Source: Bradyrhizobium commune
GTDB lineage: Bacteria; Pseudomonadota; Alphaproteobacteria; Rhizobiales; Xanthobacteraceae
Direction: 5' to 3'
NCBI RefSeq assembly: GCF_015624505.1
Contig: NZ_CP061379.1
Span: forward strand, 6,572,001 to 6,636,000
DNA length: 64,000 nucleotides
Made by a program: the position numbers and the translations under genes. Position 1 is the stretch's first letter. Every line of letters begins with the position of its first letter. Below, in pieces: positions 4,946 through 64,000 of this stretch. The notes under the pieces were generated by a model that saw nothing but the letters and a program-made list of their open reading frames with translations, did not search any database and was not told the DNA's origin.

Positions 4946-5958
4946 GCCGGTTTCTCCTTGCGCCGTAAGGTGCCGGAACGCCGCAGAAACGGCAGATCCG
5001 CAATCCTTTGGATCGTCGGCAAAATGCCCTGCGGCGCCAGCAAGACAAACAGCAGGATTGTCGCGCCGAAGATCAGTTCCGTGTTGAACGTCTGGTTTGC
5101 GCCGAGCTGGCTGCTGAGAAACTGAAAGCCGAAGCTTGCGATCATGGGCCCGACATAGGTGCCGAGTCCGCCGGCGATCACCCACAGAAGGAATTGCGAG
5201 GCTTGCGAGAGATCGAAGACGTTCGGGCTGACGAAACCCATCACCGCAGTATAAAGCGCGCCGCCAAGACCCGCGATGGCGGCGCTTAAGCCAAAGCCCA
5301 CGAGCTTGTAGAAGCGAATATCATAGCCGAGCAGTTCGCTACGCAACTCGCTTTCGCGGATCGCCGCCATGATCCGTCCGGCATTGCTCGCGCGCACGAA
5401 CGAGAGCACGATATACACGGCGGCAAGGGCGAGCAGGCAGATTGAAAATGTCGCTTCCACCGACAAGGATGTCTGCGGCTCCCCCGGCATGTTGAGTGGA
5501 GGTATGGCCGTGATGCCGTTGAAGCCGCCAAGCGGAACCGAGCCGATGCGGAAGGAGGGATCAGCGGTCGAAGTCATGAAGGAATAGAAGATCAGCGTCA
5601 CGCAGAGTGTGATGACGCCAAGATAGACGTCGCCGAGACGGCTGAAGAACAGGAAATAGCCGAGGATCAGCGAGAATGCGGCCGGTAAGGCTATCCCGAT
5701 CAGCAGCGCAAGCGTGCTGTCGCCCAGATTGGAGACCGCAATCGCATAACCGTAAGCGCCGAGACCGAAAAAAGCCGAATGGCCCAAATTCAGGACGCCG
5801 AGCGTCCCCCAGACCAGGGCGAGGCCGAGCACGGCGATCGCCATTGCTGAAAAGGCCGACAGATTGACCAGGCTGAAAGGCTCCAGCACAAACGGCCCGA
5901 GAGCCGCGAAAAGCGCGAGAGCGACAGGAACAAAGGCATGTTTTAGTTGACGCAGCAT
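4942..5958 (-). CDS. ABC transporter permease, UrtC/LivM-like
   Basis: A 338-residue inner-membrane permease with about nine hydrophobic segments. The LivM/UrtC hallmark region is present: [19 protein letters not shown] near the first third and [13 protein letters not shown] followed by [10 protein letters not shown] near the end. It starts 4 nt after the upstream permease gene ends and overlaps the downstream ATPase by 4 nt, so the four transporter genes are translationally coupled. Substrate unknown. Confidence 0.88.
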
Positions 5959-46878: not shown

Positions 46879-49800
46879 CTAGAGATTCGCCGCCAGTTCC
46901 AGATAACGGCAAAAGGCGTTGGCGAGTTGCATCTGTCGGGGCGTTCTGCATTCCACCTCGAACAGTCGAGGAGATGCCACGACGACGCAGATGCATTTCG
47001 CCCGCGATGTAGCCACGTTCAATCGATTAGCACTGTAGAGAAACTCCATTCCCCGGGGAGCGTCCAAGTAGCTGGATGTCGTCATCGAATAGATCACTAT
47101 GGGGGCTTCGCGTCCTTGGAACTTGTCCACCGTCCCGATGCGGGCGCCGGGAATGCGCTCCTGAAGCTCGAACACCTGCGCGTTGTATGGGGCGATGATC
47201 AGGATGTCGTCCAGTTCGACCGATGTCTCGACGCCGTCGCGATTGGTCCAGGTCGTTCCGTTACCTAGAATCTCCGAAACGAGGTCGCGGACGGCGTCCG
47301 CTTCCTCTCGCGACGAGCTCTGATTGCCGTCGTGCGCGACAGGTAGATAACGGAGACCGGCGCCGTTAAGCCTACCAATCGACGTGATCTTCTGATTCTC
47401 TTGGCCGGGATGGGGATGCAGGCGACCGTCGTAGAACATTTCAGAGTTGAACGAGCAGATCTGCGGATGCAGGCGCCACGTCTCGGGGAGAAAGAGACCT
47501 CGGTCGGGGGGCACGGTGGCGTGGGGGCCAAGGATATGGTCGAGAGACGAGACATCGACGCCGTCGGGATGGCTCCCTTTGATCGGCTGTTCGAGTTGTC
47601 TCGGATCGCCCAAGAGAACGATGCTTCGCGCGGCCTGCGAAACGGCAAGGACGTTCGCCAGCGACATCTGGGCGGCTTCGTCGATGAAGAGCACATCGAC
47701 GATCTGCGCCGCATCGGGTCGCGCCCAAAACCAGGCGGTCGCACCGCCGACCTTGCAGTCGGAATCCAGAGCATCGAGGAACGCCGTGTTGTCAGTCGTG
47801 AAGCGCAAACCCGGCAGATCGTCCTCCCTCTCGGACGGCTTCTGGATGCATTTGATCGGAAGACCCTGTTCGCGGGCTGTGGAGACGACCTCGTCCAGAA
47901 GATTGCGGATGACCTTATGGCTGTTCGCCGTGATCCCGACTTTCTTCCCCTCCTTGGCGAGGGCACAGATCATCCGAGCACCGGTATAGGTCTTTCCTGC
48001 CCCCGGGGGTCCCTGTACCGGAAACACGCTGTTGTCGAGATTGAGCGCTATGCGGATCGCCGCCTGCATGGTCGTCTCGCCGTTCACCTGGAATTGCTGC
48101 CCCACGAGTCGCGGAGCCGCCGCCATCAATAGATCGCGGGCGGCGCGATGGTCGCCTTCCCCGACCATTCCATGGTCGGCCACATACTCGCCGATCCGCA
48201 TCAGCGAGTCGGCGAGAACCTGAGTGCCGACGAAGCTGTGTGTGAAGACCGCCTCGGGATGCAACGAGGCCGTGTCTCCGCGCTTCTTGACGTCGATCGT
48301 ACGCTCTTCGAGCGACATCGCGACGACCCGTCCGAAATCGTCGCCGCCGATGCTGTGCAACTTGTCTCCGACGCGGATGTCGGTGTCCTGCAGCGCGAAG
48401 CGATACCGATGGACCGGGACCTTGGCCGTCCCGCCGACTTGCTGCAGGAACGCCAGTTCCGCGATCCCGTCGCGCTCGTGAAGCAGATCCTCGGCGGACA
48501 GGTCTCGAAGCCGGAAGAAGTCCCACCAGACGGCTTTGTTCTCGCGCCCATGCCAATCGAGCATAAACGCCAAAAGCCAACGCGCCTGCTGCTCGGAGCT
48601 TCGCTCTGCGACGTCGTCCGGCACGCCTTCCGTTAGACGTCCTACAAGCGCGGCGACCTTCTTGTGCCATTCGTCGAGTTCGGCGCTGACCTCCGACGTC
48701 CCCGGCGCCGGCCGGTCGACGATCGCCCCGCCGGCGATGACGTCGGCCCGAACCGACTCGAGCCAACGTCGCAAAGCATCCGTCGAGGTGCAGTCGTCCC
48801 GGTTGTAGCCCCTGATCGCTTCCTTGTCGCTTTCGGGTATACCGGCCGCGTCCGACAACTCAAGCCGTGCCTGCGTCCGCGCCATCACCGCACCGACGTC
48901 GTCGAGCGGAACGGTTCTGACGAAGGAATACAAAGGTTCGAGCTTCTTGATGGAGTAGCTCTCCACGCTGGCTCTAATGGCGTGCCGGACGACGGAATAG
49001 AGGTCAACGAAGGTTTCGGCGCGCAGCAGGCTATCGACCTCGTTCTCGCGCGTCGCATATCGGCCCATGAGCCGTTTCATCGCCGCCGGTTCGTAAGGCG
49101 CGAAATGGTAAATGTGCAGGTCCGGATAGATTTTGAGTCGATCCATCACGAAATCGACGAAACGCTCGAATGCGATCCTTTCTTCCTGACGGTTGGAAGC
49201 CCAGTCGCCGACGTACCGCGGCTGGCCGCCTTCGTCGGAGTAAGTGTATCCGAAGAGGAATTCCAATCCGCCGTCGCCTACGAACGGATCGCCCTCGAAG
49301 TCGAAGAATATGTCGCCGTGGGAAGGTTCGGGCAGTCGCGCAAGGCCGAATCCCGCGATCGGCGACAAGGTCTCGTAGAGGACCGAGCCGCTCTCGCGTC
49401 CTTCGACCTGGATGCGGGCCTGCTCGCGGACCTTCTCGAAGCTTTTGACGTTTCCTCTTTCTGGTCTCCACTGGAGCGGCAACGGCAGGGCGGCGAGCGC
49501 AGCCATCGACTCCACCCCATTCCTCTCCAGTTCGCCCATCTGCGATTTGCTGATTCCGGCGACGAGCGACATGTGATCGTCGGCCCTCCTTCGCTCGTCG
49601 CAGTGCCTCCGCCATCGGCATATCCCGCAGTGGTCGATGGGCTCGGGATAGACGGAGCCCAAGAGCGTCCCCGACACTGCTTCCTCCAGGCTGCGGCGGA
49701 CATGCCGGTAGTAAGCTGCGTAATCGGCGACCCGGTACGTCTCCGGCGTGAAGTTGGTGCCTGGCGTGACGACCAGCGCGGATGTCGGCTCGGCCTGTTG

Positions 49801-50274
49801 AATTTCGGACAACAGGTCCGAATAGAGCGAGATCTGAAGGATCGTGCTGCCCTTCGTCTGCCGCGCGAGCTTGGTGTCGATGACTTCATATGACCAGGCG
49901 CCGAAGCGGCTCGGCGTTTCGACCCTTGTGAGGATGTCCGCGCGGCCGTTCCAGTGCCCCGCCTGCAACGCGCCCTGGACGATGATCGAGTCTCCGCGGG
50001 CCATGGCGGCGCTGGTGGCTGCGAGCGAGTTGGCGTCAACGCCTACGCCTTCCACGACCGTCGCGGCTCGACCGTCGGCCTTGAGGTGCTCAACGAATTC
50101 ACGTTCGTGCAGCGTCCCCCTCTCGGCCAGCACTTCGAGCACCGGATCCCAGATCTTGGGCTTGTCCAGCTCGCCGTCGACGACCTTGAGGTCGAGCGAT
50201 GTCAGATAGCGGCAGTTCAGATGCCCCACCAGATCGCCGGCACTGAGGTTGAGCGTTCCCGCGACTTTGTACAT
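46879..50274 (-). CDS. TM0106-type RecB-like nuclease / RNase H-like exonuclease / SF1 helicase fusion
   Basis: A 1131-residue DNA-processing enzyme. The N-terminal part is a RecB-like PD-(D/E)XK domain (NGRADIL, WSYEVIDTKLA near 130) with a cysteine cluster HCGICRWRRHC near 215-225, consistent with an iron-sulphur nuclease. A DEDD-type RNase H-like exonuclease domain follows (FFDFEGDPF near 323, YNRDDCTSTDAL near 490). The C-terminal DNA2/COG1112-like SF1 helicase has VQGPPGAGKTYTGARM (about 755), FIDEAAQMS (about 863), LLGDPRQLEQ, TVDKFQGREAP and NRLNVATSRAK. It begins 24 nt after the Lhr-like helicase and is the last gene of the four-gene defence operon. Confidence 0.87.
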   Translation of the reverse strand: MYKVAGTLNLSAGDLVGHLNCRYLTSLDLKVVDGELDKPKIWDPVLEVLAERGTLHEREFVEHLKADGRAATVVEGVGVDANSLAATSAAMARGDSIIVQGALQAGHWNGRADILTRVETPSRFGAWSYEVIDTKLARQTKGSTILQISLYSDLLSEIQQAEPTSALVVTPGTNFTPETYRVADYAAYYRHVRRSLEEAVSGTLLGSVYPEPIDHCGICRWRRHCDERRRADDHMSLVAGISKSQMGELERNGVESMAALAALPLPLQWRPERGNVKSFEKVREQARIQVEGRESGSVLYETLSPIAGFGLARLPEPSHGDIFFDFEGDPFVGDGGLEFLFGYTYSDEGGQPRYVGDWASNRQEERIAFERFVDFVMDRLKIYPDLHIYHFAPYEPAAMKRLMGRYATRENEVDSLLRAETFVDLYSVVRHAIRASVESYSIKKLEPLYSFVRTVPLDDVGAVMARTQARLELSDAAGIPESDKEAIRGYNRDDCTSTDALRRWLESVRADVIAGGAIVDRPAPGTSEVSAELDEWHKKVAALVGRLTEGVPDDVAERSSEQQARWLLAFMLDWHGRENKAVWWDFFRLRDLSAEDLLHERDGIAELAFLQQVGGTAKVPVHRYRFALQDTDIRVGDKLHSIGGDDFGRVVAMSLEERTIDVKKRGDTASLHPEAVFTHSFVGTQVLADSLMRIGEYVADHGMVGEGDHRAARDLLMAAAPRLVGQQFQVNGETTMQAAIRIALNLDNSVFPVQGPPGAGKTYTGARMICALAKEGKKVGITANSHKVIRNLLDEVVSTAREQGLPIKCIQKPSEREDDLPGLRFTTDNTAFLDALDSDCKVGGATAWFWARPDAAQIVDVLFIDEAAQMSLANVLAVSQAARSIVLLGDPRQLEQPIKGSHPDGVDVSSLDHILGPHATVPPDRGLFLPETWRLHPQICSFNSEMFYDGRLHPHPGQENQKITSIGRLNGAGLRYLPVAHDGNQSSSREEADAVRDLVSEILGNGTTWTNRDGVETSVELDDILIIAPYNAQVFELQERIPGARIGTVDKFQGREAPIVIYSMTTSSYLDAPRGMEFLYSANRLNVATSRAKCICVVVASPRLFEVECRTPRQMQLANAFCRYLELAANL

Positions 50275-50298: not shown

Positions 50299-52572
50299 TC
50301 AGTGGAGTCCGCCGTCGCTTCCCGCTCCGTGCGCATGGCACACGGTCCGCGCCATGCCGTTGATGCCGGTTATCGGCCCGCTGTTCTGTCGGGCCCACAA
50401 GGCCTTGGCCAGGGGTTGCGGGACCTGCTCCCGGAACTTGCCGGCCGTTACATTCTCGACAAACGCTGCTAGCCCGATGGGATCCACGTCCTCCGCATCT
50501 GCCAGGAGCTTCAACTTCGCCGAAGCATCGAATACGTTCGTTTCGGAAAGTGTAAGACCGAGGTCATGGACCTCGCCCGGAATTCCGACCATCGCGGCGG
50601 CGGCTCCGAAGACGGCGATCGCCTGGGACCCCCGCCACAGAAAGACGTGAAGATTCCTCTCCTCCTGTACGCAGATCGTCGTCTCAAGACCGAGAGACCG
50701 GAACATCTCTCTTCCTTCGGCCAGCAGCGAACGCCCCTTGTCGTCGAGATAGGGTGGCACGTCCGACGCCAGGTAGACCTGCCGCATCTCCGCCGCCAAT
50801 CGATCGTGGAGGCGCTCTCCATTGGCCCGTTCGAATCGGGGCACAACACCTCCTGGATGCGGCGCCACGAACAGAGTGTTCGTCTTCTCGTCGAGATCCT
50901 GTACGATCCAGCGTTGGCCGGCGAAGACGACCAGGCTGTCCTTATGGACGGGAAATGAAATCGGGAGAGTCCCGAGTGTCCGCCCTCCGACCGTGAGGCG
51001 CCATTCGTCGGGCGACTCGAACACGGCGAAGAAATTGCGCGATTGGACGATCCGTTCGCCCTCCTTCCCCAGCATGATGGTGCCGTCGCTCGCTTGCTCC
51101 ACGAACTTGACCGCCTCCGAAGACAGATGCCGGAGCAGATCGGCGAACTCGGACACCGAGATCGAGGCGAAGGGACCCGGGCCGCACAATAGATCGTACA
51201 TCGGTCGAGCCCTTATGCCGCCGCGTTCCGCGATTACAGACAGGATCTGGTGGATGAGCGTCGACGCCGTTTCGGGCACCTCGCCGGCCGGCTCGACGAA
51301 CCGTTCCAGGAGCAGCCGGACGACGGCTACCGACCGTATCGTGTTGGACCGAAGCCTATCCAACATACCGGAGTCCTGATCGATGTTAGGTTCGCGCACA
51401 TAGACCCGCAGGATCGAAGGGGTGCCGCGCCGGCGCCCCGTGCGTCCGAGCCTCTGCTTCAGCGACGATAGCGATCTGGGCGATCCGATCTGGGCGACGG
51501 ACTTCATGGATCCAATGTCGACGCCGAGTTCCAACGTCGACGTGCAGATCGCGGTCGTCGGAAGCCTCGCGTCCTTCAAGCGGTCTTCGAGATCCTCGCG
51601 CAAGCTCTTCGAGAGGCTGCCGTGATGGGGGAAAAATTCGTTCGGGACCTTCGCTGCTTCGCAACGCCTCCTCAATCTGTCCGCGGCCGACTCGACAGTG
51701 CGGCGCGACCCGCCGAAGACAAGATTGTTCGTCCCGCGGAGGGTGGCGAACAGATGATCCGCGATGTCGTCCAGCGCAATCCTTCTCGGCGTTTCTTCCG
51801 CACCGGCGGCACCTTCGGCATGATCGGGATCGTCGAGCTCGGGCGGCTCGACGAACCCACGTATCTGAAGCCTGAGCTCCGGCGAATCGGATTTGGCCTC
51901 GAGAATCTCAACTGAGTGCGGTACAGCAGGACGCAGCCAGGCGGCGGCCTGCGGAAGATCGCCGATCGTCGCGGACAGTCCGACCCGCCGCGCGGCCTTT
52001 TTCGACATCGCGTCGATGCGGCGAAGTAGGCTCGCCACATGAAGTCCCCTCGGCCCCTGGAGGAAGGAATGAAGCTCGTCGATCACGATGAACGCGGCCG
52101 TCGACAGCAACCGCGAGGCGTCGGCCGGTCGGCGGGTGAACATGGCTTCGATCGACTCGGGCGTGATCAGGGCGATGCCCTGCGGCTTGGCCAAGGCCCG
52201 CTTCTTGTCGGCCTGCGGCGCATCCCCGTGCCATTTCACGACTGGAATGCCCATTTTGTCGCACAATTCGTCCAGGCGCTTGAACTGGTCGTTTATCAGC
52301 GCCTTCAAAGGACTGACATAGAGGACGGAAAAGCCCGGTTCCTTGCGCTCCGCCACCTTGGTGAGGATGGGCAGGAAAGCCGCTTCCGTCTTTCCGGCCG
52401 CAGTCGTCGCCGCGATCAGGATGTCGCGATCGCCGTCCAGCACCGCATTCACGGTGCGAGCCTGGATCTCCCTCAGTTCGTCCCAACCTTGATCTCTGAT
52501 CCAGCGACGGATCGTCGGGTGAAGCTTGTCGTAGGCTTCGTCAAGGGTTGAGTCGGAGGCTGGTGAGCTCAT
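50299..52572 (-). CDS. sngC: Lhr-like DEAD/DEAH SF2 helicase (SngC-like)
   Basis: A 757-residue helicase. Motif I is ATTAAGKTEAAF (about residues 55-67), motif Ia VSPLKALINDQ, motif II VIDELHSF, motif III LSATIGDL, and motif VI LGRTGRRRG; the TAAGKTEAAF form and DELH box are typical of Lhr/YprA-type helicases. A large C-terminal region with QRWIVQDLDEKTNTLFV follows the motor. The ATG at 52572 has GGAG 6 nt upstream and overlaps the ATPase gene by 32 nt; an in-frame ATG at 52590 is possible. With the TerB protein and the BrxD-like ATPase it forms the three-gene set described as the Shango antiphage system. Confidence 0.83.
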   Translation of the reverse strand: MSSPASDSTLDEAYDKLHPTIRRWIRDQGWDELREIQARTVNAVLDGDRDILIAATTAAGKTEAAFLPILTKVAERKEPGFSVLYVSPLKALINDQFKRLDELCDKMGIPVVKWHGDAPQADKKRALAKPQGIALITPESIEAMFTRRPADASRLLSTAAFIVIDELHSFLQGPRGLHVASLLRRIDAMSKKAARRVGLSATIGDLPQAAAWLRPAVPHSVEILEAKSDSPELRLQIRGFVEPPELDDPDHAEGAAGAEETPRRIALDDIADHLFATLRGTNNLVFGGSRRTVESAADRLRRRCEAAKVPNEFFPHHGSLSKSLREDLEDRLKDARLPTTAICTSTLELGVDIGSMKSVAQIGSPRSLSSLKQRLGRTGRRRGTPSILRVYVREPNIDQDSGMLDRLRSNTIRSVAVVRLLLERFVEPAGEVPETASTLIHQILSVIAERGGIRARPMYDLLCGPGPFASISVSEFADLLRHLSSEAVKFVEQASDGTIMLGKEGERIVQSRNFFAVFESPDEWRLTVGGRTLGTLPISFPVHKDSLVVFAGQRWIVQDLDEKTNTLFVAPHPGGVVPRFERANGERLHDRLAAEMRQVYLASDVPPYLDDKGRSLLAEGREMFRSLGLETTICVQEERNLHVFLWRGSQAIAVFGAAAAMVGIPGEVHDLGLTLSETNVFDASAKLKLLADAEDVDPIGLAAFVENVTAGKFREQVPQPLAKALWARQNSGPITGINGMARTVCHAHGAGSDGGLH

Positions 52573-53860
52573 CGCCGTCTCCGCTTGCATCGCCGTCCGC
52601 CGAAACTTCCGGTGCGTCCGGTGCGATCGGTATGTGATCTAGAAGATCTTCCCAGCGCGCACCCGGATTCTGTTCGAGCACCGACAGCATGTGAACGAAC
52701 GCTTTCACTGTCGAACGTGGGGTCCTGAAATATGCCTCTCCGATCTTTCGATCGCAGTGTTCCATGAATCCGGTGAGGGCCTCGTCGGGTATCAGATATT
52801 TGGATGGGTCACCGCTTGCGAACACCATCCTGATGTTGCCTAGCAGCACCAGCAGATCCTCGGGCGTCAGACTCTGGAGCCGGATGACCGGTCCCGAAAG
52901 GTCGACGAGACCGCCGTGCGCGAAGGTATTCTCCGCCAACCGCGATTGAAGCGCTTCGTAACTGAACAAGCCGCGGCGGGTATCGAGCAGAAATTCGGGC
53001 GTTCCGCACATGACGAACCCGATGCCGGACGTGGTGCCCTGCAGCGAGTCGTTCACAATGTCCAGGATCTGCTCGTAGTTCTGCTTCCGGGCCTGGGAAT
53101 TCTGTAGCTTGTAGATATTGGCCATTTCGTCGAACATCACGACCAGACCCGCGTAGCCCGCGACCTTCACGAGGCATGCCAGCGATTTCAGCGAGTCGTA
53201 GACGTTTTCGTCGTCGATGATCGTCCGAACTCCGAGATCCTTCTTCGCATCCGTCTTCGTCGAATATTCGCCGCGCAGCCATCGGACGGCGCATTGCTTG
53301 AGGGCATCGTTCGATTCCTCGCTGCCCCGCCAGTATGCTTTCAGGACGGTGGCGAAGTCGTATCCGCCGGCGAAACCGGTGATCTGCGCGAGCTTCTCGT
53401 CGATGACCTTCTCGATCGGCACGCCCTTGTCGCCGCCTTCCTTAGCGGCGTCGGTCACCAGCCTTTCGATCACGCTCTGTAGCGCGCCGCCTTCGGGCTT
53501 GTTCCGCGTGGCCATATTGTTCACGGCTTCGGAATAGAGCGCACGCGCCTGGCCACCGCTCGCGTGGATACGCCTGTTAGGCGACAGATCGGCGTGCATC
53601 GTGACGCATTTTCGCTCGAGCGCGATGAGACGCACGATGCTCGCGAAGAACGTCTTTCCCGCTCCGTATTCGCCGATAATGAATCTCACCGCGGCACCGG
53701 AGTCCGCTATCCGGTCGATGTCGCGCAGCAGGGCTGCGATCTCTCCGGCGCGCCCTACCTGTATGTGCGCCAAACCCAGGCGAGGCACCACGCCCGCCGA
53801 CAGAGCCTGAATGATCGTATCGCGTTCCTTGGGCCGGATTGTCTTGACGGATTTGCTCAT
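52541..53860 (-). CDS. sngB: BrxD-like ATP-binding protein, DUF2791 (SngB-like)
   Basis: A 439-residue P-loop ATPase of the DUF2791 group used by BREX (BrxD) and Shango (SngB). Walker A is FIIGEYGAGKTFFASIV (K69), Walker B LVVMFDEMANI near residue 245, and a sensor-like segment GFVMCGTPEFLLDTRRG follows. It ends with an acidic, probably disordered tail. Four-base overlap with the TerB gene and 32-nt overlap with the helicase gene show a tightly coupled operon. It probably couples ATP hydrolysis to loading or control of the helicase; this is inference from the family. Confidence 0.84.
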   Translation of the reverse strand: MSKSVKTIRPKERDTIIQALSAGVVPRLGLAHIQVGRAGEIAALLRDIDRIADSGAAVRFIIGEYGAGKTFFASIVRLIALERKCVTMHADLSPNRRIHASGGQARALYSEAVNNMATRNKPEGGALQSVIERLVTDAAKEGGDKGVPIEKVIDEKLAQITGFAGGYDFATVLKAYWRGSEESNDALKQCAVRWLRGEYSTKTDAKKDLGVRTIIDDENVYDSLKSLACLVKVAGYAGLVVMFDEMANIYKLQNSQARKQNYEQILDIVNDSLQGTTSGIGFVMCGTPEFLLDTRRGLFSYEALQSRLAENTFAHGGLVDLSGPVIRLQSLTPEDLLVLLGNIRMVFASGDPSKYLIPDEALTGFMEHCDRKIGEAYFRTPRSTVKAFVHMLSVLEQNPGARWEDLLDHIPIAPDAPEVSADGDASGDGDELTSLRLNP

Positions 53861-56217
53861 GCGGCCTTGTCCTTCATCTCGGCGATTTTCCCTCGAAGAT
53901 GCGGCGTGACGACGACTTCATCGCCGTCTTCGATCAGCGCTTCATCGAAGCGATCGAACGACCAGTCGTTGATCCGTTCGATGGCACCATCCGGCAACAG
54001 GCGCATCTCCTTCGCGTGTCGGTCGAATTCGGTCCGCGTCATCGACCCGCGAAGCTCCAGGAGCTCCACCAGTTCGGTGTGCGGCCCGTCGAGTCCGTCC
54101 AGAGCGGCCTGTTCGGGAGGAGCTTGTTGCGGCTGGACGACGTCCTCGGCGAAGATATCAGAAAGGAGCGCCGACACCGCCTCCGTGTCCCTGCGCGTTC
54201 GCGCCAGTCGCGCGGCATCGATGGAAATTCCCCTTGCGGCGACGGCCGGAGGAATCGGCGACGGCGCTTCCTTCGGTAACGGTACCCCTGCGGCCCGATC
54301 CTCGCCGCTGATCGGCACGGGATCGTCGGCCTGCCTTGCGGCGGCGCTATGGAGTCCCGAGTACACGCGCTCCTTCGGCAACCCGAGCGACTTGTGGAGC
54401 CTTTCCAGGAATTTCACTTCGCCAGCGTCCACGTTTCCGTTGCCGCCGATCACTGCTATGGCCGCGTCCGCGATGGCCTGGCGCTCGCCTTCGGTGGTTT
54501 CGGCGAGCCTGCGCATCACCCTCGCCTGCTTCGGCGGATTGTTGAACGTCGTCACTGCGAAAGCAATCAGCCGCGCCTGCTCGACCCCGGACAGATCGGT
54601 GGCGGAGCGGATCCGCGCGATCGTGCGCTGGAGTTCCTCGTACGATGCATCCCCGTCCGCCGCGGCCGCCAGCACCGCGACCTCGACTTGCGCCTTGACG
54701 GCCCTGAACGACGCCCGGTCGGGATCGACGGGGCCACCGTTCGGAGCCCTGAACACGAACACCTGCTCATCGGCGCGCGGGACGCTACTTCCGTATCGGC
54801 GGTCGGGCTCGATGGCGACCCCGATCGAATCCAACGCGCGGCCTAGTTCGTTGGCGGCCGCGGCCGAAATCTTCCCGTCCGCGGGCACTTCGATGCCCGC
54901 CATTTCCAACAGCGCCTGTGCCGTAGTGCTTCCGCGTCCGTGATCGCCCACGACGGCTTCGATCCGGTGCCGGAAATCGACTATCGCGCCCGTGCTCGTG
55001 CTTTGCTGCAGATCGGCGGGCAGCAATTTCGCTGCGGCCATCGAATTTCTGGCCGAAGGTTTTCGGCCGACGAAGCGACTGAATGAGTCCAGCTCGTCGG
55101 TGCAGTCGATCACCAGCTTCTGCAGTCCGGGCAACGGTTTCGTCACGCGGGCCACATCCACGTGCTGCTCGTGCGGGCCGCGGACCGCCACGTCGAATGC
55201 ACCGCTCGCCGCCCGATAGCGCAGCGCGATCCGGTCTTTGCCGTTCACCGGAAGGCCTGCGGGATAGATCCGGTCAAACCGCAACCGCCACAACGCGACG
55301 AACTCGCCGAAGCAACGGACTGCCGGTGTCCTCAGGTACGTGTCCGGCATCGCAAGAACCCAGCGCAACGCGTCCTCGGCCGACAACGTTGGCGCTTCGG
55401 CTAAGCGGTTTCCGAGGTATAGGCGGGTCGGTAAATCCATCTCGGGTCCGCCGCGCCGCTCTGGAGACAGCCCGCTTACTTCGAGGCCTTCGCCTTGGGC
55501 TAGTCGGGCGAAGTTGAGGAAACTGCTCGCGTAGCCGTGGAACGAGTTGTTGGCGCCATAGATCGCGAGAAGTCTCTCGACCTCTCGGACGAGCAGGGAT
55601 GCATCGTCTCCTCCCTCCAGGAACAGACGATGTTCGAGGCCATACAGGAAGATGAAGACCAGCCCGATTCCGTAGGACGGATCCCGCCTGCCGCCAGCCA
55701 TCCAATCGAGGAAAGCACGACGGGCTCCGGGAGACATGTCCGCGTAGGACGGCCAGTACGGCATCGAGCTGCCCTCGACGTCCGCCGATCCCGAGGCCGG
55801 AAGTTTCGGGTTGATGGCGTATTGGCGCGTGGCGCTTTCCGCGAGCGGGAGCCAGCCCCCGTAGTAGAACATTCCGCCGGAAAGCTCGGCCCTACCGAAC
55901 TTGACGGTTTCACCGCTCCGGATCCACCGTGCTGGGGGCGAACGTTCGACCCGTGCGGAAGGACCTTGGGAAGCGCGGGTCCGCAACCCGGTATCCAGAG
56001 GCGGTGGCTTGAGACCGGTCGGATCGGCTCGTTTCGCCGACCTCGCACGGGACACGAAGTACGGAATGGAGATCAGCCCGCAAACGAGGGCTATTGCCCC
56101 GATCGCCGCCGCGTTCTCCACCGCGAAGCGGTAGACGGCCGACACCGCGGCGGCCAAAGCGCCGAACAAAATCAACAGGATCGTCCCACCCGACGAATTG
56201 CCCCGCCGCCTAGCCAT
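53857..56217 (-). CDS. sngA: TerB_N-TerB-TerB_C membrane-anchored protein (SngA-like)
   Basis: A 786-residue protein. Two N-terminal hydrophobic helices (about residues 10-32 and 37-56) anchor it in the membrane. Next comes a TerB_N domain (FGRAELSGGMFYYGGWLP, MSPGARRAFLDWMAGGR, and GLVFIFLYGLEHRLF), then a TerB domain (about 530-660: VAVLAAAADGDASYEELQRT, IGGNGNVDAGEVKFLERLHK, with acidic metal-binding positions), and a TerB_C domain at the end (MTRTEFDRHAKEMRLLPDGA, INDWSFDRFDEALIEDGD). This domain order matches the TerB protein of Shango and the Ter-linked DNA-processing systems described by Aravind and colleagues. I start at 56217 (MARRRGNSSGG). Confidence 0.85.
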   Translation of the reverse strand: MARRRGNSSGGTILLILFGALAAAVSAVYRFAVENAAAIGAIALVCGLISIPYFVSRARSAKRADPTGLKPPPLDTGLRTRASQGPSARVERSPPARWIRSGETVKFGRAELSGGMFYYGGWLPLAESATRQYAINPKLPASGSADVEGSSMPYWPSYADMSPGARRAFLDWMAGGRRDPSYGIGLVFIFLYGLEHRLFLEGGDDASLLVREVERLLAIYGANNSFHGYASSFLNFARLAQGEGLEVSGLSPERRGGPEMDLPTRLYLGNRLAEAPTLSAEDALRWVLAMPDTYLRTPAVRCFGEFVALWRLRFDRIYPAGLPVNGKDRIALRYRAASGAFDVAVRGPHEQHVDVARVTKPLPGLQKLVIDCTDELDSFSRFVGRKPSARNSMAAAKLLPADLQQSTSTGAIVDFRHRIEAVVGDHGRGSTTAQALLEMAGIEVPADGKISAAAANELGRALDSIGVAIEPDRRYGSSVPRADEQVFVFRAPNGGPVDPDRASFRAVKAQVEVAVLAAAADGDASYEELQRTIARIRSATDLSGVEQARLIAFAVTTFNNPPKQARVMRRLAETTEGERQAIADAAIAVIGGNGNVDAGEVKFLERLHKSLGLPKERVYSGLHSAAARQADDPVPISGEDRAAGVPLPKEAPSPIPPAVAARGISIDAARLARTRRDTEAVSALLSDIFAEDVVQPQQAPPEQAALDGLDGPHTELVELLELRGSMTRTEFDRHAKEMRLLPDGAIERINDWSFDRFDEALIEDGDEVVVTPHLRGKIAEMKDKAA

Positions 56218-56738
56218 GAAAATCCATAAGATAATACTGCCGGTCCCGGCCCGTCTTATGGGGCGACATTCGCACGACACACAACCGTAAGGAAAGGGTC
56301 GGGCCTCGATAATTCGGGCAATCGGACTATCCTTCAGACTATCGCCCGAAGACCATTGTGGAATCCCTTACTGCGGAAGCAATGGAGGGCCCGGCTGCAT
56401 TGAGCTCTTACTGCACGATGCGCATGCCACGTGCGAGCGGAGCCGAAGCCGGAAGTGCCGTACCGCTCGCGTGCGGCACAAAATCGCACATTGGCGAGAA
56501 TGAAACGCCGGCGGAGCCGAATCGGCCTATCTCATACGATAAAAGGGGTGGCAACGACGCCGGAGCGGAACTATTGCCGAACGATGCAACCTGAGGGAGC
56601 ATCACCAATCGGTTAGTGTTCGGTCAACTCTCTGGTTACTGGCGGGCGTCCGAGAGGACACCGCAATGCTGTATTTCAGGCGCCTGGGCGGAAATTCCGC
56701 CCTCACCTTTCGCGGTCGCGACATGGGATTGGGACTTC
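56218..56738. other. Divergent control region of the defence island
   Basis: About 520 nt separate the starts of the minus-strand Shango-like operon and the plus-strand NERD-kinase-helicase gene. The composition is more AT-rich than the genes. It must hold both promoters, so the two transcription units may be co-regulated. The plus-strand frame is open from 56616, but sequence before the ATG at 56739 does not look coding. Confidence 0.55.
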
Positions 56739-59700
56739 ATGGATATCAATTTCTTTCGGCCCCAGGGTCCTCAGCCCACGGAGATGGAGGGACTAGCCGA
56801 GATGGGCCGTGTCCTCCCTAGGCCGTGGAAGGGGTTCGCGAATTTCGTTATGCGGCAACGCGGTCGACGTGGTCAAGACCGTGAAATCGACGCCGTCATC
56901 GTAGCGTTCGATCGGATCATTCTTGTCGATCTGAAGCATATTCGCGGCCGCATCGAGAACCGCGGCGGCTTCTGGCATCGGGGCGGCGACAACCTTGGTC
57001 CTTCGCCGGCGCACAAGATCCGCGAGAACGCGAAGATGCTCGCCTCTCTCATAAAATCCGAAGTCCACAAGATCCCGGGGGTTCCGCCGGTTGAAAGCAT
57101 CGTCGTTCTCACCCATCCGGATTGCGATCCGAGCGGATTGGATCAGGTCGAGCTCGACAGAACCGTAAAGTTGGCGAACTTCCTGAAGATTTCGCGCGAG
57201 CAGAATTTTCAAAACCTGTTCACGACCCATTCGGTGTATGGAGCTTCAAACCCGCTTTGCTCGGGACATTTCGGTGCAACGCTGCAGAAGTTCTTTCAGA
57301 ACGGAAAGCTGTTCGAACCCCGGAAGACCCGGTTCCACGGCTTCGTACCCGTCGGCGAGCCGGAATTCAGCCACAAGCTCTTCGAAGAATTCGCTTGCCA
57401 TCAACCCGAAGATCCTAACTACACGGGATTGCTCAGGCTTTGGGACTTCACCGTCGAAAGCGAATTAATCGTAGAAGAAGCGCGGCGCCCCGTAGCCGAG
57501 CGCGAGCGGGCCGTGCTTGGGCACATCCGGGTGCAAGACCCCGCTCTCTACGAGAACTACGTGCTCAGATCGATCCATTTCGACGCCGAGTACACCCTTA
57601 GATACTCCGAAATCTTCGACAAGCTTCCGGATCTCGAGAGGCTCAACAGATTCCAGGGTGCCCTTAAAGATCTGACCTTCGAGCGAAGGGTCGAATTGTC
57701 TCGGCTATTTCTGGACCGGATCGCGAGCCTTCATCGCATCCGCGTCGCCCATCGAGACCTCGATCGGCACTCGGTGTGGATCGACGAGCGCCGAAGCAAG
57801 GTCGTCCTATCGGGTTTCGGTGCCGCTCATTTTCCGGAGCGAACGTCGATCGGCGGAACGCGCTCGAAGCTTCAGGCGAGCGGATTCAGAGTACCGGAGG
57901 ATGTCGGCGAGAGCTCGGCCGGAACACCGTTTCAGCAGGACGTGTTTCTCGCGGGCGCGCTCGTCTGGGGGCTCCTGTCTGGAGAGCGTCTTCAGTCCAT
58001 GGACCGCGTGCCGGTATGGACGTCCGGGACGATCAAAGGCTCGGATGTCCCCGACGCGTTCAGGAGCTGGTTCGATCGTTGTCTGAAGATCGAGGCGCGA
58101 GAACGCTTCGACAACTGCGTCGAAGCCGCAGACGCTTTCGCTGAACTCGTGCGCAAGACGGAGAAGGCCTCCCTCGAGAAGCAATTGGACGCTTATCGAC
58201 GCGACGTCGATCCGATCTCGGACTACGAGCCGACCGAATGGATCAGCAAGAAGCCATATCGGGTGTATAAGGCGGAACGGGATGGCGAAGCTCTCTTCGT
58301 CAAAAGCTGGCCAGAACGCGTCCTGGGTGAGCGCAGGAAGTCCACGGCACGCCTGATCGAGTTCTTCGCCAAGGCCAATGCCTTGAGACGCGTGGACGCG
58401 AGTTGGCTACCGAGAACCGACGTTGCGTGTCTCTGCACCGATGGTCTACTGCTGGTGCAGGAGTGGGTAGAGGGCGAGCGCCTTTCCGAATGCAACACCG
58501 CGGATTGGACGCCCGAAGCCCTCCGGCGTTTCATCGTGGCGCTTGCCGACGCGGTGGACGAACTCCACAAACTCGATCTGGTCCATGGGGACCTATCGCC
58601 GAAAAACATCATCGTTCGCCTCGACGGCGACGTGCCGCGTCCGATCCTCGTCGATGCCGTGGATTTCTCCACCGACGAGGAAGGGAGGCGGACACCGGTG
58701 TACTGTCCGCCGGAAGACAATGACCTGCGGATCCGCGACCGCTTTGCGGTCGGACAGATCACCGCGGAACTGGCCGAGGTCTGCAGGGACGAGGAGACAA
58801 AGACGCTCTTCGCGCTGGGGGTATCGAAGAGCGCCGAGGGTGCCGCGCCCTGGCTAACGCTCAAGACTCTCAAAGATACGATCGCCATGCGCCGGCGGCG
58901 CCCCGCGAACGCGAGGCTCGAACTCGAAGTCGAGATGCAGAGAGTCGGCTTTGAGGGCAGGATGCTGTCGGATAACGGCGTATTCCACGTCATAAAACCG
59001 AAGAAGGCTCCGAACTCGATAGAAATTTTCGGATTCGATCAGCGCCTCATCGTCGACTTCGACCCCGCCGACTCGAAGCCCTTCGATGCGGTCGCGAGCA
59101 AGATCGGCATGCGGGAAGCCGCTTGGGCTCAGGGGCATCGCATATTCTCGTTCGAGGGATCGGTCACGGTACGACGGTCTCGCGCAACCAGGTTCGCCGG
59201 CTTCGACGATCTGCCTGCGCTTATCGCCGCGCACTTGACCGCCGTCTCGGTCTCGAAGGACGCCGTCACCCCCGCAGAGACCGTAGACGCGAAGACCAGC
59301 GCGCCGGAGCCCGCGCAGCCGCCGAAGCGTGGTTTTCCCGTCAAGGATTTCTGGCACGGCACAATTCTGGTCGAGGAGGAGATCAGCCCAGAGGTCACCC
59401 TCGCCACCGAGCCGCGGTACGACGACGAGGAGCGTACCCTGTATCTCGTCGCCGAAGACAACATTCCGGACGTCGATCCAAGCGACGGGCAGGCGGTCGG
59501 CGTCCAATGGAACGGCTACAAGCTCGGCGATCTTGACACCGAGCGAACCCGAGGAACGACCGTTGTTGTCAGGAACGTTCGCAGCGCGCGCGGTCTGCAC
59601 AAGGGCGACATCCTGAAGATTCCCGACGACCTCATCAGCTTTCAACGCCGCTCTCGCGCCATCTCGCGTATTCTCGACGGGAAGTCGACGATACCCAATC

Positions 59701-61496
59701 TGATAAGATACTTCGATCCGGAAGGGGATATGACGCCGCAGACCTTCGGACCCGAGGTTCGCGACGAAGACCTGACGCGATACGGTCTCAACCCCGACCA
59801 AAACGAGGCATTCAAGCATCTCTGGAAGCACGGGCCGCTGGGGCTGCTTCAAGGACCACCTGGGACCGGCAAGACGACCTTCATCGCCGCCTTCGTCCAT
59901 TTTGCTCTGACACAATCGAGGCTCAGCAACGTCCTCGTCCTGTCACAATCGCACGAGGCGGTAAACAACGCCGCGGAAAAAATCCTGCATACCGCTTCGA
60001 AGCTCGGAGGGGACATCGACCTCCTGCGCGTTGGACAGCACTCGAAGATATCGCCAATGCTGCACAAATTTCATGCCCGCGCGATCCAAGATCGATATCG
60101 CGAGCTGTTCCGAGCCGCCGTTAAGGAACGAGTGGTACCGCCGGCGAATCGCCTGGGACTGGACAGAAACTACATTGAAGAGGCCATTGAGGTCGAAAAC
60201 ACGCTTGGATCGCTTCTACGTCAGATCGAATTCTGCGAGCAGGACATCGCGACATCGAACGATCAGGACACTGTGGCAGCGGCGAAAGAGAGGGCAGAAA
60301 GACTGAAGGAGGCCTGGACCGACGCCGCAGCGGAGCGTTCCGTGTCGATCGACGGCGACCCACGCGGTGCTCTGGAGGAGGTCCGTGCCGGCATCGCCGA
60401 GAGATACGCCGTGCATGATCCAGACGCGCGACGGCGGCTTTTGCGCATTCACGGCCTGGCGATGGAGTGGGGCGCTACGCTCGGAATGCGCGGGAGAAGT
60501 CTCGAAGAGCTATTCGCCAGGAGCCGAAATCTCATCAGCGGCACATGCGTCGGAATCGGGCGACAAGGAATCCAGATCGACAAGAACGTGTTCGATCTAG
60601 TCATCATCGACGAGGCGGCGCGCTGCACGCCGGGCGAGCTCGCCGTCGGAATGCAGTCGGGCCGACGCGTCCTCCTTGTGGGCGACCACAAGCAGCTTCC
60701 GCCGCTGTACGGCCACGAACTGACTGAGGCGCTGGGCGTGCGGCTGAATCTCGCCTCCAAGAAGGATCTACGGCGAAGCGATTTCGAGCGGGCATTTCAC
60801 TCGACATACGGCTCGGCAGTCGCCCGCACGCTGAAGCGACAATACCGGATGGCCCCGAAGATCGGGAAAATGGTAGCCAAGATTTTTTACCCGGGTCAGG
60901 ATCTGGCGACGCAGCGCGGAGACCCGCCCGACTACTACCGGCTTCTCCCGCGACCGTTAGACGACGAGATCGTCTGGTTGGATACTGGCTTCTCCAAATC
61001 GACGAGGAGGGAGAGCGATTCCGGCAGCAGCTTCGTGAACAGACGGGAAGCGACCGCCATCGTCTCGTGCCTGAAGACGATCGCCGGTTCAACTGAATTC
61101 CTCCAATCCGCGAGCGACGACCTCAAGGAGGACGAGCCCCTCATCGGCGTCATCTGCATGTACGCTCCGCAGGTCGGCCTGGTGGAGGAGATGCTTATCA
61201 CGTCCGGCCTTGCACCCGAATTCAGGAAGCTAGTGAAGGTCGGAACGGTCGACAGCTATCAGGGAAAGGAAAACCGAATCGTCATTCTATCTCTGGTACG
61301 GAGCAATCCGGAACGCGACATGGGCTTCATCCGCGCCGCGAACCGCGTGAACGTCGCGGTTTCCCGCGCGATGGAGCGGCTTGTGATCGTCGGATCGGTT
61401 CGCATGTTCGACAGAAGTCGGAGTTCGTTCTCGTCTGTCATCCACGAACTGAGAGCCGCAGACCGCATCGTCGCGCTCGGAAAGGAATGGCAATGA
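56739..61496 (+). CDS. NERD nuclease-like / pseudokinase / protein kinase / SF1 helicase giant protein
   Basis: A 1585-residue protein (MDINFFRPQGPQP). Residues ~25-130 resemble a NERD nuclease-related domain (DREIDAVIVAFD, IILVDLKHIRG). A first kinase-like domain (~270-480) has AHRDLDRHSVWI but lacks the catalytic-loop Asn and DFG Asp, so it is a likely pseudokinase. A second (~500-690) keeps the key residues: LFVKSW (Lys), VHGDLSPKNIIV and VDAVDFS. The C-terminal DNA2/COG1112-type SF1 helicase has QGPPGTGKTTFIAAF (~1038), IIDEAARCTPGEL (~1290), LLVGDHKQLPPLYG, TVDSYQGKENRIV (~1504) and NRVNVAVSRAME. PglW and MkoA (Mokosh) share some of these modules. Confidence 0.82.
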   Translation: MDINFFRPQGPQPTEMEGLAEMGRVLPRPWKGFANFVMRQRGRRGQDREIDAVIVAFDRIILVDLKHIRGRIENRGGFWHRGGDNLGPSPAHKIRENAKMLASLIKSEVHKIPGVPPVESIVVLTHPDCDPSGLDQVELDRTVKLANFLKISREQNFQNLFTTHSVYGASNPLCSGHFGATLQKFFQNGKLFEPRKTRFHGFVPVGEPEFSHKLFEEFACHQPEDPNYTGLLRLWDFTVESELIVEEARRPVAERERAVLGHIRVQDPALYENYVLRSIHFDAEYTLRYSEIFDKLPDLERLNRFQGALKDLTFERRVELSRLFLDRIASLHRIRVAHRDLDRHSVWIDERRSKVVLSGFGAAHFPERTSIGGTRSKLQASGFRVPEDVGESSAGTPFQQDVFLAGALVWGLLSGERLQSMDRVPVWTSGTIKGSDVPDAFRSWFDRCLKIEARERFDNCVEAADAFAELVRKTEKASLEKQLDAYRRDVDPISDYEPTEWISKKPYRVYKAERDGEALFVKSWPERVLGERRKSTARLIEFFAKANALRRVDASWLPRTDVACLCTDGLLLVQEWVEGERLSECNTADWTPEALRRFIVALADAVDELHKLDLVHGDLSPKNIIVRLDGDVPRPILVDAVDFSTDEEGRRTPVYCPPEDNDLRIRDRFAVGQITAELAEVCRDEETKTLFALGVSKSAEGAAPWLTLKTLKDTIAMRRRRPANARLELEVEMQRVGFEGRMLSDNGVFHVIKPKKAPNSIEIFGFDQRLIVDFDPADSKPFDAVASKIGMREAAWAQGHRIFSFEGSVTVRRSRATRFAGFDDLPALIAAHLTAVSVSKDAVTPAETVDAKTSAPEPAQPPKRGFPVKDFWHGTILVEEEISPEVTLATEPRYDDEERTLYLVAEDNIPDVDPSDGQAVGVQWNGYKLGDLDTERTRGTTVVVRNVRSARGLHKGDILKIPDDLISFQRRSRAISRILDGKSTIPNLIRYFDPEGDMTPQTFGPEVRDEDLTRYGLNPDQNEAFKHLWKHGPLGLLQGPPGTGKTTFIAAFVHFALTQSRLSNVLVLSQSHEAVNNAAEKILHTASKLGGDIDLLRVGQHSKISPMLHKFHARAIQDRYRELFRAAVKERVVPPANRLGLDRNYIEEAIEVENTLGSLLRQIEFCEQDIATSNDQDTVAAAKERAERLKEAWTDAAAERSVSIDGDPRGALEEVRAGIAERYAVHDPDARRRLLRIHGLAMEWGATLGMRGRSLEELFARSRNLISGTCVGIGRQGIQIDKNVFDLVIIDEAARCTPGELAVGMQSGRRVLLVGDHKQLPPLYGHELTEALGVRLNLASKKDLRRSDFERAFHSTYGSAVARTLKRQYRMAPKIGKMVAKIFYPGQDLATQRGDPPDYYRLLPRPLDDEIVWLDTGFSKSTRRESDSGSSFVNRREATAIVSCLKTIAGSTEFLQSASDDLKEDEPLIGVICMYAPQVGLVEEMLITSGLAPEFRKLVKVGTVDSYQGKENRIVILSLVRSNPERDMGFIRAANRVNVAVSRAMERLVIVGSVRMFDRSRSSFSSVIHELRAADRIVALGKEWQ

Positions 61497-62980
61497 CGTC
61501 AGAGGCGCCCAAGCACGTGGACATCGACGTGGCCACCTTCGCGGTCCGTTGTCAGAAGTTCAGAATCGCCGCGCTCGTCATGAAGAGAACCTCCATACCG
61601 CTTGCGACCGAATATGCAACGCGTCTCGTTCATCTTATTCCAGGCATCCGGTTGGACGACATGCTCGCATTCTTCGACTTCGATCCTTCCGAGTCCAAGA
61701 TCCTTCTTCAGGACGTCTTGAGCACGGGGCTCGTCGAGGAACGCAACGGACAGCTTCATCTGTCGCAGCGGGGCTGGAAATCCCTGTCGCCCGATTCGGA
61801 CAGACTGGACCTCTTCGAGGTGGAGGAAATCAACACGACGGTCGCCTTCGAGCTTGCCGCGCTCACTCCGGTCGAGGAAAGCTCGCTCAACGCTCGCGAA
61901 GCCAAGGTGGTCGAGGAGCTCAAGCTGCCGAACCGCGAGAAGGCCGCCGCCGCCGGCGCCGAAGCCGCGGAGGCATTTGATCTGCACTTTCAAGAGTGGC
62001 GCGCTACCCAGGCAAGGCGACGTTGGCTCGACGAGGACACGCGGCTGACGTCGATCGAGGATATCCAGCCGATCGCAGCCGCCACGGCGGTCTTCCAGAT
62101 ACCGGTGCGCTGGCGTCCTGCGGACGAAGCAGGAGTTTCTCCCGACTTCTCCGAACTCTCCAGTCGCGGTCGGCCGGGGTCCAGAAGTCCCCTTATCTCT
62201 GCGATCAGCGAGCAAATGAAGTCCGTGGTGGCGCCTTCGGACCACCATCTCGCATTCGAACTTGTGGATCGGATCGACGGAGGAATTCTGCGTCGTGGCG
62301 GCGTCAGATCCTCGATCGAGCGCGAGCAATGGATAAGGGCGGCCGCGAGTTCCGACGGACATCAATTGAAAGGGGTAGGCGCCCCGGGACTCCGCCTCGT
62401 AGGGTCCGTGGCATCCGACAAGTTACGTTCCGCTTTGCTCGATTGGACTCAATCTACGGCGAACGCGACGTCAACGACCCGGACACCAGTGTTCTGGTTG
62501 CCGCCCGCCGTTTCGTCATGGGGACGCAACGTTCCGTTCGTCAACCTCGCTCGGGATCTGTCCATAGCCAATCAAATCGACGACGGAACCGTGCTTCTCG
62601 CGCGGGCCGGCAGCACATACGACCGAAAGTCGTGGACCAGACTCTACGCGCAGGCCAACCGACAGCCTGCGCTGTTCGACCGTTGTCTCGCCATTCCTTC
62701 TAAGGAGCTTCCCTCGGCCCTTGAGATCATACTGAAGCCAAGCAGCTGGGTGGCAATTCTCATCCACTCGCCCGATTCAACCTCCAACTATCCGCTTCCG
62801 TTCGGATACATTACGGCAGACCCGACGATAGTCGGCAGCTACAAGCAGAGCATAGCGGAGCTCGCCGCCAAGGCCGAGGGCACCGCAGCACTTCTTTGGA
62901 CGAAGGCGGATGAGGATCCTCATCGGGCCCTCACCTCAATCGATGCCGCGCTCGACATCGGCGTCGCCGACCCAGATTGA
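61493..62980 (+). CDS. Unrecognised partner of the NERD-kinase-helicase, winged-helix-like N-terminus
   Basis: A 495-residue soluble protein (MTSEAPKHVDIDVATFAVRC). The ATG at 61493 overlaps the helicase stop as ATGA and has AAGGA 6 nt upstream; the ATG at 61487 has no room for a ribosome-binding site. Residues ~55-105 (DDMLAFFDFDPSESKILLQD, LVEERNGQLHLSQRGWKSL) look like a winged helix. The middle is charged; the last ~200 residues (VFWLPPAVSSWGRNVPFVNL, SSWVAILIHSPDST) are alpha/beta. I see no HKD phospholipase D motif, which the MkoB partner of Mokosh would have. Tight coupling suggests an obligate complex partner or effector. Confidence 0.65.
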   Translation: MTSEAPKHVDIDVATFAVRCQKFRIAALVMKRTSIPLATEYATRLVHLIPGIRLDDMLAFFDFDPSESKILLQDVLSTGLVEERNGQLHLSQRGWKSLSPDSDRLDLFEVEEINTTVAFELAALTPVEESSLNAREAKVVEELKLPNREKAAAAGAEAAEAFDLHFQEWRATQARRRWLDEDTRLTSIEDIQPIAAATAVFQIPVRWRPADEAGVSPDFSELSSRGRPGSRSPLISAISEQMKSVVAPSDHHLAFELVDRIDGGILRRGGVRSSIEREQWIRAAASSDGHQLKGVGAPGLRLVGSVASDKLRSALLDWTQSTANATSTTRTPVFWLPPAVSSWGRNVPFVNLARDLSIANQIDDGTVLLARAGSTYDRKSWTRLYAQANRQPALFDRCLAIPSKELPSALEIILKPSSWVAILIHSPDSTSNYPLPFGYITADPTIVGSYKQSIAELAAKAEGTAALLWTKADEDPHRALTSIDAALDIGVADPD

Positions 62981-63218: not shown

Positions 63219-64000
63219 CTACGGCAGTTCGAGGCCCACGCTGTAGTCGCCGTCGCGCAGGCCATCGAAATCCCACTCATAGATCGAAACGGGTCCGATC
63301 GCGGCTTGGCTCTGGCCCAGAAAGAATGCGAAGGCGTTCGGCCCCGCGATGAAGAGATGGACACGGCGCGGCCCACCCTTGGCCGAAGCGCGTATCGCGC
63401 CCAGCAAGGACAAAACCATCGCCGCCGCATGGCTGCCGGATCGCACGCTTTGGTAAGACGGGCCGCCCACGGGGGTTGCCGTCATGAGCGCGCCGACGGC
63501 GGTAAGATTCTGGACGTAGCGGCGAACCGCCGGCCCCACGTCGTGCGTCAACGAGACGGCGACCGCGAGGTCCACCCCGATGGAGTGGACCGTTTCCTCG
63601 ACGATTGAGAGCGTCGGCCAGGCCGGATCGAGCGGCTTGTCCGTCGCCGACCAGATGTGCCGCCCGCCCGCCCGCTGCTCGATTTCGATGGCCTTCCCGG
63701 ACTTGACATTGAGGATCGCGCCGACGCCGAACGCCAGGGAGACGTGCGTGTCCAGGATCAGGCGCAGTTGGTCCTTGTCGCGCGCGGACTGGATCAGAAA
63801 CCGACTGAGTTCCGGGAAAACGTCTGCCTTCCACCTGGCCTGGTCGCGGATGTAACGGCCGTCGAAGTGCGGAACGAGGTTCACTGACTCTTCGCTGCGC
63901 GCCTCGATGTCGTCGATGGGGTGCATGAACGATCGTACGCCAAGCGTCTTGGGCCGCGGCTGCGCCGGCGCGAGGAGCCCCTCGTCTGCGACGAGATCGC
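63219..64000 (-). CDS. SAVED-domain protein (CBASS-type sensor), 5' part outside the window
   Basis: The frame runs without a stop from the right edge to 63219, giving about 260 C-terminal residues. TLGVRSFMHPIDDI, LVPHFDGRYIRD, LILDTHVSLAFGVG, LAVAVSLTHDV, RVHLFIAGPNAFAFFLGQSQ and VSIYEWDFDG are the successive blocks of a SAVED domain, the cyclic-oligonucleotide sensor fused to nucleases or other effectors in CBASS. The N-terminal effector and any CD-NTase gene lie beyond the window. It converges on the partner gene at 62980 with 238 nt between stops. Confidence 0.82.
   Translation of the reverse strand, partial: DLVADEGLLAPAQPRPKTLGVRSFMHPIDDIEARSEESVNLVPHFDGRYIRDQARWKADVFPELSRFLIQSARDKDQLRLILDTHVSLAFGVGAILNVKSGKAIEIEQRAGGRHIWSATDKPLDPAWPTLSIVEETVHSIGVDLAVAVSLTHDVGPAVRRYVQNLTAVGALMTATPVGGPSYQSVRSGSHAAAMVLSLLGAIRASAKGGPRRVHLFIAGPNAFAFFLGQSQAAIGPVSIYEWDFDGLRDGDYSVGLELP

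Follow-up and report, generated by a model that had tools for sequence, protein, structure and literature searches.

A Mokosh type I locus of Bradyrhizobium commune and the mutually exclusive occurrence of NERD and HKD nucleases in 30 MkoA-MkoB pairs

Results

A Mokosh Type I Gene Pair in Bradyrhizobium commune

A stretch of 64,000 nucleotides from Bradyrhizobium commune (contig NZ_CP061379.1, positions 6,572,001 to 6,636,000, in the following called the window) contains a gene pair that is, as PADLOC draws this family, a Mokosh type I locus of the kind with a long MkoA. The NERD domain of MkoA is most likely the nuclease, and the predicted PLD-like domain of MkoB, which has no full HKD motif, would belong to a sensing subunit. 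To this reading as a whole we assign a probability of about 70%. Computation established the family membership by profile, the domain order, the conservation of residues and an either-or distribution of NERD and HKD.

The first gene, mkoA (56739..61496, forward strand), encodes a protein of 1585 amino acids with the order NERD, pseudokinase, kinase, linker and SF1 helicase, and residues 1-1573 matched positions 1-1588 of the 1607 positions of the PADLOC MkoA model PDLC03921 with 1365.1 bits. The second gene, mkoB (61493..62980, forward strand), encodes 495 amino acids, or 497 if the ATG at 61487 is used, and residues 10-464 of the longer form matched positions 7-441 of the 454 positions of the PADLOC MkoB model PDLC03923 with 176.6 bits. 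The two genes are adjacent on the same strand, and the stop of mkoA overlaps with the start of mkoB at 61487-61496, as a sequence-only reading of this DNA had described. Near-whole-length matches of both proteins and adjacent genes on one strand are features of Mokosh type I that the window shares. A further feature, the PLD-type (HKD) nuclease motif in MkoB, which reportedly belongs to the founding description of type I, is missing. Because the full motif is absent from the MkoB of the window and also from the other 16 short MkoB proteins described below, membership was judged by the PADLOC models and not by the HKD feature.

Domains of MkoA

The NERD domain comprises residues 25-125 (56811..57113, forward strand) and matched Pfam PF08378 with 46.6 bits, compared to a cut-off of 22.1. 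The residues of the PD-(D/E)xK type are E15, D51, D64 and K66 in the window. In an alignment of 45 sequences, including that of the window, E15 was present in 42 (the remaining three have gaps), and D51, an acidic residue (D/E) at position 64 and K66 were present in all 45. The structure of residues 1-960 was modeled with a mean pLDDT of 85 and a pTM of 0.44. The model supported a kinase fold at residues 199-477, and its top Foldseek match was a duplicated kinase domain. Kinases took up the match lists when this model was used for fold searches, and the NERD assignment is therefore based on Pfam and on the residues.

The first kinase (residues 199-477, 57333..58169, forward strand) is a pseudokinase. 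In the 45-sequence alignment its HxD is kept, while position 345 is Ser instead of Asn in 41 sequences and position 358 has no Asp. In the second kinase (about residues 490-699, 58206..58835, forward strand), which is supported by a Pfam Pkinase stretch at 566-631 and by the secondary structure, the catalytic set K522, H616, D618, N623 and D639 is kept in the same alignment. After a linker at about residues 700-1000, the SF1 helicase core follows at residues 1017-1554 (59787..61400, forward strand; Pfam AAA_11 and AAA_12), with a Walker A motif GPPGTGKT from residue 1039; Walker A and DEAA are conserved in the alignment. Both the order of a NERD, two kinase-like domains and a helicase in one chain of 1585 residues and the succession of a pseudokinase and a kinase had been read from the sequence before and were borne out.

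NERD and HKD Exclude Each Other in 30 Gene Pairs

Thirty MkoA-MkoB pairs were compared, i.e., the window, seven pairs from other genomes and 22 from plasmids. The plasmid loci were a selection of distinct matches, with 13 chosen from 49 + 48 records, nine from 153 + 55 records, and all three from another search. Four loci were left out before counting: L057, the annotated MkoA of which has only 804 amino acids, L053, which consists of fragments on a 3.9-kb contig, L064, in which mkoB is split by an IS3 transposase gene, and L068, in which mkoA is split by an IS3 element. The latter two exemplify IS3-type insertions into both genes on plasmids.

Two full HKD motifs are present in all 13 of the MkoB proteins with a length of 572-639 amino acids, and no NERD was found in the MkoA proteins paired with them (1095-1199 amino acids); L059 and L069 gave weak matches to NERD, with E-values of 6.1 and 0.53, respectively, which are not N-terminal. 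In contrast, no full HKD motif was found in any of the 17 MkoB proteins of 461-523 amino acids, which are paired with MkoA proteins of 1501-1714 amino acids, and in 16 of these MkoA proteins a NERD lies close to the N-terminus, with E-values of at most 1e-26. The MkoA ORF of the 17th pair, L049, has no NERD, but the pair was nevertheless classed with the long form; a NERD stretch (about 5151-5468, i-E 2.4e-24) lies just upstream of this ORF in a different frame. Among the 30 pairs examined, NERD and HKD nucleases are mutually exclusive. At L074, a separate gene (730-1347) annotated as a nuclease-related domain protein is located just upstream of the NERD-bearing mkoA.

The gene pair of the window resembles the long MkoA and short MkoB described by PDLC03921 and PDLC03923 in both proteins, over nearly the whole models and in the gene order, and the relatives have the same NERD-kinase-kinase-helicase order. 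No difference of substance was found, so that the pair is one more copy. The loci described by PDLC03920 and PDLC03922 (short MkoA and long MkoB, e.g., L046, L047, L054-L063) share with it the kinase and the SF1 helicase of MkoA and a related N-terminal region of MkoB. They differ in that neither a NERD nor a second kinase was found in their MkoA and that their MkoB has two full HKD motifs; in L046 and L047 the MkoB partner also contains Pfam PLDc_2 twice. A profile built from 13 kinases of the short form favored kinase 2 of the window (8.8 versus 2.9 bits), and the alignment of PDLC03920 with P0128 (residues 573-1668 on model positions 54-1103) points to kinase 2. In L052, L067, L074 and L075 the best match of the short-form profile was kinase 1.

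In a helicase tree with 27 rows, which holds only four of the 13 short MkoA proteins because the Walker A pattern missed the other nine, the long-MkoA kind forms one side of a single branch with a support of 94/98. As the tree needs only one change, the NERD/HKD correlation counts as one event and not as repeated convergence. The exclusion is consistent with a single exchange that was followed by long maintenance; it does not represent several independent events. In this exchange, the role of the nuclease would have moved from the MkoB partner to the giant MkoA.

According to PMC12839542, the order NERD, inactive kinase and active kinase is found in PglW and in a subset of DndF, and a backup or suicidal role of the NERD nuclease has been proposed there. 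The N-terminus of the window protein matched MAD6 of MADS (NCBIfam NF047741, 156.9 bits, cut-off 460, residues 17-497 only) and PglW of BREX type 2 (NF033442, 87.8 bits, cut-off 990, residues 15-417 only), in line with the likeness to PglW and MkoA noted in the sequence-only reading. The likeness to PglW and MAD6 consists of an N-terminal NERD and kinase-like domains that follow it. Membership in PglW or MAD6 was rejected, as both scores are far below the cut-offs, and neither match reaches past residue 497. The shared order and these matches would suit an explanation in which defence depends on the helicase alone and the NERD acts with both kinases as a module that is either self-directed (suicidal) or regulatory, in the manner suggested for PglW. 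We regard this as rather unlikely, because in Mokosh the NERD is present where the only other recognizable nuclease is missing, and this speaks more for a main effector than for a backup.

A Predicted PLD-Like Fold and No Full HKD Motif in MkoB

For the MkoB of the window, no Pfam or NCBIfam match was obtained. Counted in the 497-residue form, it comprises a winged-helix domain at residues 37-108 (61595..61810, forward strand) and a C-terminal domain at residues 291-490 (62357..62956, forward strand), for which a PLD-like fold was predicted. The fold matches include PLD-family nucleases such as NucT, and TrmB-type regulators are among the solved relatives. TrmB-type regulators also combine a winged helix with a PLD-like fold, but they have another size and only 11% identity, so that the similarity is one of fold only.

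A pattern search revealed no full HKD motif in any of the 17 short MkoB proteins, including that of the window, and neither a second HKD half nor a GSxN tail was found in any of them. Thus the prior observation that the partner has no recognizable HKD motif stood. It had also been stated that an HKD domain detected in the partner by structure prediction would make the locus a Mokosh variant; here the prediction yielded the PLD-like fold, but not the complete motif. Looser patterns matched L052 (421), L067 (340) and, among 48 homologues, P0020 and P0021; none of these matches has a GSxN-like tail and none lies at the conserved His. When the C-terminal domain of short MkoB proteins was compared with PLD repeats at the profile level, no link was found (probability of 0.4% and below), and therefore the interpretation as a lost HKD is founded on the fold and on spacing. 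The N-terminal regions of both kinds of MkoB, on the other hand, are related with a profile-profile probability of 94%. PDLC03922, the second MkoB model of PADLOC with 610 positions, cross-matched four of the five short MkoB proteins scanned other than L018, the five being L019, L020, L048, L051 and L052.

At the site of the conserved His, Lys is missing from 16 of the 17 loci and from all 35 rows of A1. The exception is L067, with H-x-K at the conserved His itself. The His (H427 in the window) and a Gly (G440) are kept in all 17 short-MkoB loci and in 35/35 rows of A1. Glu413, 14 residues before this His (about 62723-62725 in the window), is likewise found in all 17 loci. Judging from these residues, short MkoB proteins may retain some catalysis. 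A nuclease activity of MkoB via a non-canonical site around His427, Gly440 and Glu413, with the NERD as an extra or backup nuclease, would be in agreement with the invariance of the three residues in the long-MkoA kind, with the predicted fold similarity to NucT and with the H-x-K of L067. It is nevertheless unlikely, given the missing second HKD half, Lys and GSxN tail and the TrmB-type regulators among the fold relatives. A sensing role of this domain, with the NERD as the nuclease, is preferred.

Distribution and Genomic Surroundings

Among 398 genomes of the phylum, PDLC03923 yielded six long matches, including the window, and seven short ones that are confined to the N-terminal part; a search of 289 genomes of the class retrieved ten short matches besides that in the window. 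In 14 control genomes no match was found, unlike for PDLC03922, which matched in eight of them. In the 398 genomes PDLC03922 gave two full-length matches (the loci L046 and L047), fragments in genome G334, and many partial matches to other ORFs, which presumably encode PLD enzymes such as cardiolipin synthases. At E<=1e-30, a search of the 369 genomes of the class of genome G351 with PDLC03922 retrieved only G351 again.

The gene pair has other defence genes as neighbors, which agrees with the defence association suggested on first inspection. A Shango operon with SngC, SngB and SngA (50299-56280, reverse strand; PADLOC scores of 290.1 bits for SngA, 569.6 for SngB and 823.6 for SngC) is divergent from mkoA. 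It is adjoined at sngC by a gene (46879-50274, reverse strand; TIGR03491, 246 bits) whose product combines a RecB-like nuclease of the TM0106 family and an SF1 helicase in one chain. L019 likewise has a TM0106-family gene (1-2506) close to its Mokosh pair. Downstream of mkoB are CBASS-like genes for a SAVED effector, a SMODS nucleotidyltransferase and an AAA ATPase (63219-64000, reverse strand, continuing in L076 1220-5464); the gene of the SAVED-domain effector extends past the end of the window. A small ORF is located among these genes (L076 3607-4128). The genes to the left of Shango (19729-46051) encode a DUF3363/relaxase protein, ParA-like, RepA-type and Toprim proteins, a Strawberry-notch-type helicase, a weak ParB_N match and an ArdC-type anti-restriction protein, and they would fit an integrated mobile element.

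The pair had initially been regarded as a candidate new defence system, and the missing full HKD motif and the lack of a Pfam or NCBIfam match of the partner would agree with this, but a new system without kinship to Mokosh is very improbable and was rejected, because both genes have full-length PADLOC matches (1365.1 bits for MkoA and 176.6 bits for MkoB) and the same gene pair occurs in named plasmids.

Discussion

For the window copy we infer an anti-phage activity; the substrate, the order of events, the roles of the kinases and the loss of MkoB activity are proposed here as follows. Phage nucleic acid would be recognized by the SF1 helicase and by MkoB, through the winged-helix and PLD-like domains of the latter. 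The PLD-like domain would have lost its catalytic motif and would act together with the winged helix as a subunit that senses nucleic acid or a ligand. The NERD at the N-terminus of MkoA could then be released by an ATP-driven movement or by phosphorylation through kinase 2, with the pseudokinase as a regulator, so that one kinase would presumably regulate the other, and it would cut nucleic acid. The pseudokinase may be a latch that arrived together with the NERD.

In evolutionary terms, it appears about evenly balanced whether Mokosh swapped its nuclease, so that one lineage has a PLD (HKD) nuclease in MkoB, whereas in the other MkoA acquired both a NERD and a pseudokinase by fusion and MkoB became a catalytically dead sensor with a PLD fold. 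If there are two such lineages, one defence chassis of kinase, SF1 helicase and winged helix would therefore operate with two unrelated nucleases. No description of an exchange of NERD for HKD was found in the literature searched, which is weak evidence of absence, since most subscription papers were outside the search; a mechanistic study of Mokosh was not found in it either. In a review (PMC10952713), a PLD-like domain is listed for both Mokosh types and NERD for type I, and in PMC11291487 Mokosh is said to degrade viral transcripts. The account of NERD-kinase proteins in PMC12839542 does not include Mokosh.

Mokosh thus joins PglW and a subset of DndF, as described in PMC12839542, among the defence proteins with the order NERD, pseudokinase and kinase. 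The locus of the window is one more Mokosh and ordinary as a defence system, and the proposed swap of NERD and HKD is testable. The either-or distribution of the two nucleases names the probable effector of each form of Mokosh.
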